Positions 33,544 through 41,641 of a stretch of DNA of 41,888 nt are shown one piece after another. Location: contig JAHJGM010000023.1 of the NCBI GenBank assembly GCA_018824305.1, positions 1 through 41,888 of the forward strand, written 5' to 3'. Positions within the stretch are counted from its first letter, which is position 1. Every line of letters starts with the position of its first letter. Position numbers and translations under genes: made by a program. The notes beneath the pieces are model-generated. The model saw nothing but the letters and a program-made list of their open reading frames with translations. It did not search any database and had not been told where the DNA came from. This stretch comes from a bacterium. GTDB taxonomy: Bacteria; Campylobacterota; Campylobacteria; Campylobacterales; Sulfurimonadaceae.

Positions 33544-34962
33544 TTACTCGTCTATCATCTGTATAGCTAATTCAAATAACTCACCGCTAGCGATCTCCAT
33601 CTCTTTGAAATCTTTTAAAATAATATCTTTCTGTGCGATGCAAGTATCCTCATCTTCAACACATTTTACAGCTTCTCTCACTTTGTTATGTACAACCGCA
33701 TGATGCTGTTCTATCTTTTTATAACTCTGTGTATGTCCAAACTGTTTTTTACCTTCTTCATCATACCACTTGCCAAAACGGCATTCATGATGCGTACCAA
33801 ACTCTGTATTCTTTTTACCAATATTGATAGAAGTATACGCATTTGCTTTAAAAAGAATATGATCGATCATTATAAGGTTTATAAATATTCGGTCTTTTAT
33901 ACTTTGGATTTGGCCTTCTATATTTTCATTTGTATCACGAAGCTGCATCATACTGCTACTAAAGACATTCATCAGTTCACTAAAATCACGCACCACTTCA
34001 CGCATAGATTCAGAACTCGTCGACATCTCCATACTCTCTTGTTGCAAGACTTGCACTGTTGCTCTTATCTCTGCAGTAGCTTTTTGCGTACGTTCAGCCA
34101 GTTTTCTCACTTCATCTGCAACAACGGCAAATCCACGTCCATGCTCTCCCGCACGTGCTGCTTCTATAGCAGCATTAAGAGCTAAAAGATTTGTCTGATC
34201 TGAAATATCACTAATAAGATCGATCACTGCCGTGATCTCTTGAGTGCGCTCTTCCAAAGAATGTGTAGCATTAGCATTATAATCTAGCAGTTCATTAAGT
34301 CCATTGAGTTTATCTCCGACATCTTGTGACTCTTTTGCACGCTGTATAGTCATTTGTGTCGCATTTTTAACATTTTCTGAAATCTTTTCCAACTTATCAG
34401 TATTGCTTTTAAAACTTGTATTAAGAGATTGAAGTTGTTCATTATTTTTATTCACTGCACTTAACTCTGCATTTAGTTGTACTCTCATCTGTGTCGTATA
34501 ATTCGTGTTCATGACATCAATACTTTCATTGATTTTATTACCTGCAAAAATAAATGCTGAATTCAATCCTACAATATTGAATTTTCTAAAAAACTCATTA
34601 CTACCTGCATATTCTATTGCAGTAGACATTTCACGCATAAATGTTTCCATCTGGTCTATAAGATTGTTGATTTGATGACAAATAAGACCCGCTTTACCAT
34701 TATCTGATATCTCAGTTACACGACTCTCAAGATTTCCATGAACGGCACTATCTAAAACTGCTATCGATTTATCCATACAATTTTTGAGACCAAGTAGAGA
34801 AATATTAAAAAATACACCCAAGCCTGCATATAAAAATAATAGTATCGTATCAACTGTACTAAATCCATCAAAGATAAGTTTTATAAAATAGCCAAAAACA
34901 AAAGTAACAAAAATTGTATATCCTACGAGTTGAAGTTTAGATAGATAAGACAAATTTGTCAT
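33544..34962 (-). CDS. Methyl-accepting chemotaxis protein with CZB zinc domain
   Basis: A 472-residue chemoreceptor. Two hydrophobic segments (about 11-31 and 36-56) form a hairpin with almost no periplasmic part, so it must sense from inside or through a partner. A HAMP-like stretch follows, then the signalling domain with the conserved tip [40 protein letters not shown]. Residues about 370-470 are a CZB domain with the expected 3-His/1-Cys zinc set ([27 protein letters not shown]); CZB domains have been linked to hypochlorite and zinc sensing. GGGGG precedes ATG. It overlaps the PAS gene upstream by 26 bases, resembling the CetA/CetB two-part energy-taxis receptor of C. jejuni. Confidence 0.92.
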
Positions 34963-35419
34963 AACGACCCCCGTTTTTTACAAGTAAATCATTAAACATC
35001 TTTTCTGACGCACCCATTCCAACACTTTTTTCTGCATGTAACAACTGTTTATAAACCGGTTTAATGATATCGATAGCTTGACGAGAGGGCTTTCTTCTGA
35101 CAGAATAATATCCGACGATATTTCCTTTGCTATCGTATGATGGTGTAACATTTGCAAAAACCCAATAATAATCACCGTTTTTAGCTCTGTTGATAACATA
35201 TGCATAGATCTCTTTACCTTGGCTCACCGTATCCCATAAGAGTTTGAAAACAATTTTTGGCATCTCAGGATGACGGATTATATTGTGTGGAGCACCAATG
35301 AGCTCTTTTTCGCTATATCCTGCCATTTTTAAGAAAAGGTCGTTCCCGTATGTTATTTTCCCTTTTGTATCTGTTTTTGAAACTATTATTTCATTCTCAT
35401 TAAATTTCAACTCTCTCAT
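34937..35419 (-). CDS. CetB/Aer-like PAS sensor protein
   Basis: A 160-residue single PAS-domain protein. Core motifs are [38 protein letters not shown] and the AKNGDYYWV strand, typical of Aer-type PAS domains that bind FAD. A short tail after residue 120 probably contacts the receptor. In C. jejuni the PAS protein CetB signals through the membrane protein CetA; here the adjacent, overlapping chemoreceptor is the likely partner. AAAGGATC precedes ATG. The 149-base gap upstream is AT-rich and should contain the promoter of this three-gene minus unit. Confidence 0.85.
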
Positions 35420-38035: not shown

Positions 38036-38057
38036 AGAGCCTTACATGTAAGGCTCT
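38036..38057. terminator. Palindromic bidirectional terminator
   Basis: A perfect 22-base palindrome with arms AGAGCC and GGCTCT around TTACATGTAA. It lies 13 bases after the biotin carboxylase stop and 10 bases beyond the stop of the convergent HU-LysM gene, so it can serve both. On the plus strand T-rich DNA follows. Its centre is the TTACATGTA motif seen elsewhere in the window. Confidence 0.7.
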
Positions 38058-38067
38058 CTCTATCTAC

Positions 38068-39003
38068 TTATTTCTTTTTATATTTGTTCAACCTCTGAGC
38101 AGCTCTTTTATACTCTGCGGCTCGTGGATTGTTGTGTTTTTTGTAGTCATCGGCGACGATCTTGTATGCCTTTGATTTGAGTTGGAGGTCTGCTGGCTTT
38201 GGATTCTTCACGCTACCAGCTAGTGTCGGTATGTTCAGTTTAATCCCGGTATAGATAAGATCAGGATTGTGATGAGCCAGCTCTAGTCTGTTTTGTGCAT
38301 AGATAACCGGCCACCAACGAGGATCGCCCCATGTGGTCGTAGCAATCCCCCAGAGAGTATCACCCGAGGACACGTTAACCACTTTATCCATAGCCTTTGA
38401 CGGTTCTACGGGTGCAGGTGTAGCGGCTGTAGAGACGGTCTGTACTTTTTGGGGAGCAGTGGTTACAGTTGTGGGTTCAGGGGCGAGTGTAACAGGCGCT
38501 TTGTCAATGGGATGTACCGGTTCAACTTTAGCCGATGCTTTCTCTGCCGGCACCGCGTAATGGATATCTGGAGTGAGTACCAAACTCTTTATACCCATAG
38601 CAAGCAAGATCAGTAGTACTAGAAATATCGCCAGCAAGAGCAAGATGTTAGTTCTCACACGCCATGCAGTTTTGTCCTCGGTAAGTTCTTTTATTCGCAA
38701 CTGGCGAAACGGTGCATTGACAGCAAAACGCAGTGCGCGGTAGGGGCGAAAGTGGACACGTGTATGCTCTGGGATCATTAAAGGCTCACCTGTATTTGGG
38801 TTGTGCCCCATCTTTTCACCCACATGTGTCGTATGAAAACGTCCAAAGTGATACAGATGAATAGAATCACCCTTCTCCAACTCCTCACTCATGGTCTTTG
38901 TCAGTTGGTGGATATACTCATCTGCCTCGACTCTACTGACTCCCGCACGCTTAGCCACCAGTTCTGTAAAAGTATGAAATGTGATCTTATTATCGTGGCT
39001 CAT
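38068..39003 (-). CDS. HU-like DNA-binding, single-TM, LysM protein
   Basis: A 311-residue fusion. Residues about 6-98 are an HU/IHF-family DNA-binding domain, including the arm GHNPNTGEPLMIP with the DNA-intercalating proline position (P69) and the closing FRPYRALRFAV. Residues about 119-142 form one membrane segment, with basic residues (RVR) just before it, predicting the HU side in the cytoplasm. A Pro/Thr/Ala/Lys-rich linker (about 145-205) leads to a LysM domain (about 209-259: SSGDTLWGIATTTWGD) and a basic tail. LysM binds peptidoglycan. The layout suggests a link between DNA and the cell wall. It overlaps the upstream small HU gene by 4 bases. GC is clearly above the window average (57-62 percent in two 60-base lines I counted). 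No name is assigned. Confidence 0.88.
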   Translation of the reverse strand: MSHDNKITFHTFTELVAKRAGVSRVEADEYIHQLTKTMSEELEKGDSIHLYHFGRFHTTHVGEKMGHNPNTGEPLMIPEHTRVHFRPYRALRFAVNAPFRQLRIKELTEDKTAWRVRTNILLLLAIFLVLLILLAMGIKSLVLTPDIHYAVPAEKASAKVEPVHPIDKAPVTLAPEPTTVTTAPQKVQTVSTAATPAPVEPSKAMDKVVNVSSGDTLWGIATTTWGDPRWWPVIYAQNRLELAHHNPDLIYTGIKLNIPTLAGSVKNPKPADLQLKSKAYKIVADDYKKHNNPRAAEYKRAAQRLNKYKKK

Positions 39004-39305
39004 CTCTGTGTACCATCATCGCCAAGTTCGGTGTTGTAAACCTCTTCACGGAGTGAAGTTCCTGTGCGAAATACGGGGAAACGACGTTTTGGGAAAAGTG
39101 CGAACTTGTCGCTTACAGGCAGATACCCGAGGTGTTCATCGTATGTCGCCGTGTCAAAGGTACCTAAATGAGGCAGGGTCACAGCGTGCCCGACTCTGAG
39201 CAGGTCACGAACCTCCCGCAGTGTCGCTTTTAGCAAGCGCTTCGACTGGGCGTTTGAGATACCCAACTCTTTTGCAACATTTTCAATTAGTTCAGTTTGG
39301 TCCAT
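39000..39305 (-). CDS. Small HU/IHF-like DNA-binding protein
   Basis: A 101-residue protein with an HU-like plan: two N-terminal helices (MDQTELIENVAKELGISNAQ, then LLKATLREVRDLL), strands GHAVTLPHLGTFDTATY, and a FPKRRFPVFRTGTSLREEV closing segment. The arm is shorter and lacks the RNPxTG motif, so DNA contact may differ from true HU. It could pair with the HU domain of the next gene to make a heterodimer, since HU folds work as dimers; that is inference. AAGGAGCG lies 5 bases before ATG. Base composition is about 53 percent GC by my count over four lines, against about 20-40 percent in neighbouring genes and spacers, so the pair may have been acquired. Confidence 0.85.
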   Translation of the reverse strand: MDQTELIENVAKELGISNAQSKRLLKATLREVRDLLRVGHAVTLPHLGTFDTATYDEHLGYLPVSDKFALFPKRRFPVFRTGTSLREEVYNTELGDDGTQR

Positions 39306-39403
39306 GATCGCTCCTTAGTAAGTGACGATTACCATGTCATTTTACCAATACTATATCAAATAGAGACCAATATGCATTAAAAATAATAATTAATTATTAA
39401 ATT

Positions 39404-40567: not shown

Positions 40568-41641
40568 CTACTTCTTAGCTTCTTTAAAGAAGTTTGGTAT
40601 GGTTTTAATTATATTTCTTGTTAGCTCTGATTCCGACTTTGCTTTCTCTAATTCTACAGTTGTCTGCCCCTTTTCTAATATAAAGTTTCTTTCGGTTTTA
40701 GACAGTGACTCAATTGCGATTTTCAATGCATCTTGGTTGTTTGTAAGGTAAGAAAACTCTACCGCCACTAACTTAGACTCAACATTTGTAAGTTCATTCT
40801 GAAAATATTTAATTTCTGACAATCCATCTCTATATAAACGTAAGAAAAAGTATGCAAAAATTTCCACAAATATCACAAGCAATATTCTAGGTACTATTGG
40901 AAGAATCAAATTTTTAAGAAACTTACCATTTGAATCAGCTCCTTCAGATGCAAGTTGTTTTAGCAACGCAGAAGCATCAACCATTGAAACTGTAGACCAT
41001 AGTAAATACAAGCCTACAGCAGTAATTGACATCCCAATTAATAAATTAATATTAGAGCGTAAACGTAAATCTGCTATCTCTCTCATCAATCTATTAATTA
41101 CATTTTCAGATGAATCAAGAAGCCTTTCAAAGCTTAAGTCCTCTTTGATTTTATCTTTGAGTTTATCCGCTTCAAGTTTGAATATTTTTTGTATGGCATC
41201 TTCGCTGGTTTGCTCAACAGCACCATCAATAATTTTTTGTTTTTCTTCTTCGCTAAGTCCTTTTTCTGATTCATATATTTCTAATTTTTCATTGAGAATT
41301 GAAATTTGATTTTTATAAATTTCAAGTTCTTTTTTGGATGAGTTTATCTCAGAGTATATTTTCTTTGCCTGACTCGAAGTTAAGCTATCGTCACTTTTAT
41401 CTCCTCCAGACTGGAGATATAAAAATGCAAAGGAGACGACAGACACCAGCAGCAATGTAATTGGTACTGATGTTTCTTTTAAATCTAAATTTATGAACTG
41501 ACTAAAATAAAACAAAAATGGCTCAGAAAAGAATGATAATATGGCGAATACCCCACTTAATGCCCCAATAACAACTAACAAGCGTTTATTATTAATTAAC
41601 CTTTGTATTAATTTAATATTTGCGTCTAAAATCGAACTCAT
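40568..41641 (-). CDS. Unrecognised membrane protein with coiled coil
   Basis: A 357-residue protein I do not recognise. Hydrophobic segments lie at about 21-40, 58-78, 200-218 and 247-272, giving four predicted membrane passes. Residues about 85-190 form a charged, helical, probably cytoplasmic coiled coil (KKELEIYKNQISILNEKLEIYESEKG), and the C-terminal about 275-357 is another charged helical tail. AAGGGAA precedes ATG. It is bounded by gene-free DNA on both sides and is not part of an operon within the window. Such layouts occur in stress or defence-associated effectors, but nothing here proves a role. The high AT in its coiled-coil region and its isolation make horizontal gain conceivable. 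Confidence 0.7.
   Translation of the reverse strand: MSSILDANIKLIQRLINNKRLLVVIGALSGVFAILSFFSEPFLFYFSQFINLDLKETSVPITLLLVSVVSFAFLYLQSGGDKSDDSLTSSQAKKIYSEINSSKKELEIYKNQISILNEKLEIYESEKGLSEEEKQKIIDGAVEQTSEDAIQKIFKLEADKLKDKIKEDLSFERLLDSSENVINRLMREIADLRLRSNINLLIGMSITAVGLYLLWSTVSMVDASALLKQLASEGADSNGKFLKNLILPIVPRILLVIFVEIFAYFFLRLYRDGLSEIKYFQNELTNVESKLVAVEFSYLTNNQDALKIAIESLSKTERNFILEKGQTTVELEKAKSESELTRNIIKTIPNFFKEAKK

Follow-up and report, generated by a model that had tools for sequence, protein, structure and literature searches.

A rare two-gene cassette pairing a small HU-fold protein with a membrane-anchored HU-LysM protein

Relation to described HU-fold and LysM proteins

HU and IHF proteins grip DNA with two beta arms through arginine and lysine residues, and a proline in the arm intercalates. 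Direct physical links between the chromosome and the cell wall of bacteria have, to our knowledge, been proposed far more often than they have been shown. One such proposal reportedly came in 2017 from the Aravind group, who are said to have described HU-CCDC81 proteins of Bacteroidota carrying a transmembrane segment and a peptidoglycan-binding SPOR domain as a possible connection between the chromosome and the septal wall. In Mycobacterium tuberculosis, the nucleoid-associated protein Rv3852 is held in the membrane by a transmembrane helix, binds DNA and influences envelope assembly (PMC8233713).

The locus described here is a two-gene cassette located in the window, by which we mean the whole stretch of 41,888 nucleotides analyzed. 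Like HU and IHF (PF00216), both of its proteins have the fold and align over the full domain, but they are near-neutral with arms poor in basic residues, and one of them is fused to a transmembrane segment and a LysM domain. The HU-CCDC81/SPOR and HU-HIG clades of Bacteroidota (PF18175 and PF18291) also join an HU domain to other domains. In contrast to these clades, the cassette carries LysM rather than SPOR, matches PF00216 better, includes a gene for a small HU partner and occurs in different phyla. Rv3852 resembles the large cassette protein as a nucleoid-associated protein placed at the membrane by a transmembrane helix and tied to envelope organization, but it is not an HU protein, and the available portion of its description mentions no periplasmic peptidoglycan-binding domain (PMC8233713). 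YgaU/Kbp and TsaP share the LysM domain with the large protein but lack an HU domain. The literature searched contained no published HU-TM-LysM protein and no combination of LysM, a small HU partner and a transferable cassette.

Domain architecture and conservation of the gene pair

A preliminary description of this DNA had reported two open reading frames overlapping by 4 bases. Both are present where it placed them, on the minus strand, which it had left unstated (Table 1). It had also divided the large protein into an HU domain, a single transmembrane segment, a Pro/Thr/Ala linker and a LysM domain, a layout that Pfam, hydropathy and matches to PRK11198, PDB and Foldseek entries support. 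PF00216 matches the large protein at residues 12–96 (E 8.1e-20) and the small one at residues 1–89 (E 3.9e-14), scoring 71.3 and 53.1 bits for the two proteins (cut-off 22.4) across the whole fold. The related family PF18291 (HU-HIG) passes its cut-off of 26.2 on the large protein of the window with 28.7 bits, falls below it in five of the six homologues and always scores lower than PF00216. PF18175 (HU-CCDC81) reaches 17.5 bits on the large protein of the window against a cut-off of 35, and PF00216 scores far higher. The AlphaFold2 models are monomers built from alignments only 8 and 7 rows deep and have low overall confidence (pLDDT 61 and 56), with the LysM domain and tail of the large protein mostly at pLDDT 80–92. 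The best Foldseek matches of both models are HU/IHF structures, and the large model also matches LysM structures.

Table 1. Features of the cassette and its insertion site, in window positions.
Feature	Positions	Strand	Remark
Small HU-fold protein gene, 101 aa	39000..39305	-	Kept in 7/7 copies
HU-TM-linker-LysM-tail protein gene, 311 aa	38068..39003	-	Kept in 7/7 copies
ATGA start/stop overlap	39000..39003	-	Identical 4-base overlap in 7/7 copies
HU domain of anchored protein, residues 12–96	38716..38970	-	Pfam match
Juxtamembrane segment LRIKELTEDKTAWR, residues 98–118	38650..38712	-	Strongest constraint, pN/pS 0.17
Single transmembrane helix core, residues 120–138	38590..38646	-	Hydropathy; model helix 99–142
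Pro/Thr/Ala-rich linker, residues 143–207	38383..38577	-	Low-confidence (disordered-looking) in model; fast evolving
LysM domain, residues about 208–262	38218..38382	-	PRK11198, TsaP and Kbp matches
C-terminal helical tail, residues 263–311	38071..38217	-	Model
Ribosome-binding site AAGGAG, 5' of small gene	39311..39316	-	Retained in 5/6 aligned upstream regions
Leader/promoter region, part of cassette	39306..39401	-	Homologous sequence in G354 copy
Segment missing from G102, about 1.34 kb	38060..39401		Between accC hairpin and 3' end of rhodanese gene

The LysM assignment draws on several kinds of match. The Pfam family PF01476 is weak in the window protein (E 0.06) and scores 13.7–19.8 bits in every member, all under the cut-off of 20.9, including several homologues with LysM matches of their own. 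The region also matches PRK11198 (E 1.1e-8), the LysM domain of TsaP in PDB (E 1.4e-4) and the Kbp structure 7pvc in Foldseek (64 columns, rmsd 2.4 Å). Together with the tail, it has a net charge of +10. The linker that precedes it contains 11 Pro, 11 Ala and 9 Thr in its 65 residues. The hydrophobic segment (mean hydropathy 3.38) is the only one in the large protein; its N-side flank has a net charge of +1 and its C-side flank one of −1. A single-pass anchor with a more positive N side fits a predicted topology with the HU domain inside and the LysM domain outside, supporting the earlier proposal that the two ends lie on opposite faces of the membrane.

Scanning 84,980 genomes, each standing for a species, yielded five further copies, and a search of the phylum added one more (G354), from a genome in the same family as that of the window. 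The pair, first described from a single genome, is thus present in six others, all of which retain the gene order, orientation and identical 4-base overlap. Identity to the window proteins in these genomes is 74–80% for the small protein and 62–67% for the large one. The copies reside in contigs of Campylobacterota and Desulfobacterota type, next to unrelated genes, and three of the genomes (G408, G409 and G412) belong to one order. Gene content and the affiliation of the related genomes suggest a campylobacterotan host for the window. dN/dS is 0.19–0.53 for the large gene and 0.12–0.33 for the small one, except for a value of 0.66 in the closest pair, which has few differing sites. Within the large gene, pN/pS is lowest in the juxtamembrane segment and the HU domain (0.25) and highest in the linker (0.65) and the transmembrane segment (0.59). 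Furthermore, the two genes agree in their distances (correlation r 0.83) and in the topology of their trees. Purifying selection thus acts on the pair as a conserved unit, and its order, overlap and matching trees support joint inheritance. Such co-inheritance is consistent with a working pair. Given how common HU and LysM modules are, the pair could be two ordinary HU genes, one of them fused by chance to a LysM protein, with no joint function. We consider this highly improbable, since the entire pair and the same overlap recur in six other genomes, giving seven genomes with the same architecture and order at unrelated sites under purifying selection.

More divergent HU-TM-LysM proteins, with 28–29% identity to that of the window, were found in two genomes (G100 and G938) from another family of the order. 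Both are cut at a contig start, which leaves the position of a small partner gene beyond view. A broader profile search of 379 genomes of the order gave no other full-length members among the matches listed, the remainder of which were HU-only or LysM-only. In 326 genomes from the phylum of G412, only G412 was full-length among the matches listed, an absence that is less firm because scoring covered part of the candidates in each genome. Five HU matches in longer frames in Desulfobacterota, considered as fusions, all proved to be ordinary HU/IHF proteins.

Arm charge and the proposed functions

The preliminary description had applied to this pair the general statement that HU folds bind DNA, which the composition of the two modules does not support. 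The arm of the anchored domain (HTTHVGEKMGHNPNTGEPLMIPEHTRVH) has a net charge of −1 in the window and −3 to −1 across the seven copies. In the small protein, the arm (DTATYDEHLGYLPVSDKFALFPKRRFPV) is at 0 in the window and ranges from 0 to +2. By comparison, 54 ordinary HU/IHF domains recovered in the same searches have a mean arm charge of +5.6 and a minimum of +1. Whole-domain charges are −2 to +6 in the cassette modules versus +3 or more in 55 controls. The whole-protein net charge of the host HU (at C17) is +8. All these charges leave out histidines and serve only as a proxy for DNA binding. Neither cassette module has the basic DNA-binding arms of HU/IHF, and the small protein has a divergent arm in which GYLP replaces GRNP. 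The pair is best classed, from its sequences, as having an HU fold rather than as a proven HU-type DNA binder. With arms depleted of basic residues and modules that are near-neutral or acidic overall, the fold is not enough to assume DNA binding. The step from fold to ligand is unsafe, and two neighboring hypotheses therefore have to be weighed.

Our first choice, held tentatively, is to read the cassette as coding for a nucleoid linker anchored to the wall. The two HU parts, made together from one overlapping message, may form a mixed HU-type dimer at the inner face of the membrane. The conserved juxtamembrane helix and the transmembrane segment would then carry this dimer across the membrane, and the flexible linker would allow the LysM domain to hold on to peptidoglycan. 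Part of the nucleoid could be docked by the dimer, whether through contact with DNA that is weak or restricted to certain sites or through pairing with the basic HU of the host. We infer the heterodimer, its contact with the nucleoid, the contact with peptidoglycan in vivo and a physiological effect. The HU folds, single transmembrane segment, linker and LysM domain, together with the conservation of the pair in all seven copies, purifying selection and agreeing trees, support the linker. Low arm and domain charge, low-confidence models and the lack of conserved neighbors that would suggest a pathway weaken it. Thus, of the chromosome-to-wall tether put forward in the preliminary description, the HU folds, topology, LysM domain and co-inheritance are supported, whereas DNA binding by the HU modules is not. 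The fuller version, in which a transferable two-gene device couples the nucleoid to peptidoglycan through the mixed HU dimer and the tether is gained or lost in one step, is possible but less likely than not.

The second hypothesis, which we regard as possible and rank after the linker, is that the HU fold serves as a protein-docking device. The anchored dimer would have no grip on DNA and would recruit another cytoplasmic protein to a wall-anchored site. This hypothesis accounts for the loss of basic arm residues from both modules in all seven copies and for the strongest constraint falling on the juxtamembrane motif LRIKELTEDKTAWR. It is harder to reconcile with the DNA-binding features that persist. 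The intercalating proline is present in both proteins (Pro63 in the small one), the anchored arm retains the (N/D)PN(T/S)G turn, and the small protein keeps its KRR/R residues. Furthermore, the distant relatives in G100 and G938 have slightly positive arms (+1 and +2). As a natural, minimal, horizontally acquired gene pair with an empty-site relative, the cassette offers a clean system for testing the existence and the effect of a chromosome-to-wall link. If DNA is not the ligand, the cassette documents HU folds turned to a membrane docking role.

Empty site, distribution and transfer

In G102, the closest relative compared, accC adjoins the rhodanese gene and the cassette is absent. About 1.34 kb was thus gained by the window strain or lost by G102, a presence/absence polymorphism at one otherwise intact site. 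Both flanks are syntenic with G102 and about 82% identical to it, which argues against an assembly chimera or contamination in the window. A perfect 11-bp inverted repeat (AGAGCCTTACA/TGTAAGGCTCT, 38036–38057) follows accC at the edge of the inserted segment and is largely conserved in G102. The distribution of the cassette and its GC content favor gain over loss. The preliminary description had noted a GC-rich pair in AT-rich surroundings; the pair is indeed richer than its flanks (0.479 versus 0.359), but the 62% that it cited can hold only for single lines of sequence. In G408, G409, G411 and G412, the GC content of the pair (0.537–0.564) is close to or somewhat above that of the flanks (0.451–0.554). 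Within the genus, the cassette occurs in one of eight genomes. In the phylum sample, 2 of 347 genomes carry it; for G412, the figures are 1 of 345 genomes in its phylum, the one being G412, and 3 of 194 in its order. The cassette is rare and has passed as a unit between distantly related bacteria, as the empty site, patchy distribution and GC content, in line with the transfer suggested earlier, indicate.

Outside the cassette, neighboring sequence is shared only upstream, extending to about 245 bp in three related genomes and to about 97 bp between the window and G354 copies. No conserved neighbors hinting at a pathway were found across the copies compared. In seven contigs (that of the window and L042–L047), the cassette sits closer to the upstream contig end than chance would predict (Fisher combined p 3e-7), and the corresponding value for proximity to either end is 1.4e-5. 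This suggests strain-variable or repeated sequence upstream of the cassette. A pattern scan for a cassette promoter scored no better than shuffles. The inserted segment is bounded by neither terminal inverted repeats nor a convincing target-site duplication of the kind that marks known mobile elements.

The sporadic horizontal distribution would also suit an accessory system for defense or control of foreign DNA, in which a wall-anchored trap would act on incoming phage or plasmid DNA and spread as cassette cargo. The G408 copy has a Fic gene, a putative addiction-module pair and a Y1 transposase fragment as neighbors (L006:3903-5959), and a PIN-domain gene lies near the G412 copy (L010:2219-2584). 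We consider this role improbable. PADLOC gives no model match to a known anti-phage system at E 0.01, and the neighbors in the window are biotin carboxylase and rhodanese genes. Furthermore, viral contigs contained no relative and phage and plasmid records no full-length match, findings that also discount the cassette as phage or plasmid cargo.

Neither a tRNA nor an Rfam element was found in the window. Among its other genes, the minus-strand gene at 40568–41641 encodes a predicted membrane protein of 357 aa that has several hydrophobic stretches and matches no Pfam family above the cut-off. On the same strand, a PAS-domain gene (34937–35419) and a chemoreceptor-like gene (33544–34962) overlap at the start of the latter, as if a PAS chemoreceptor had been split into two genes.
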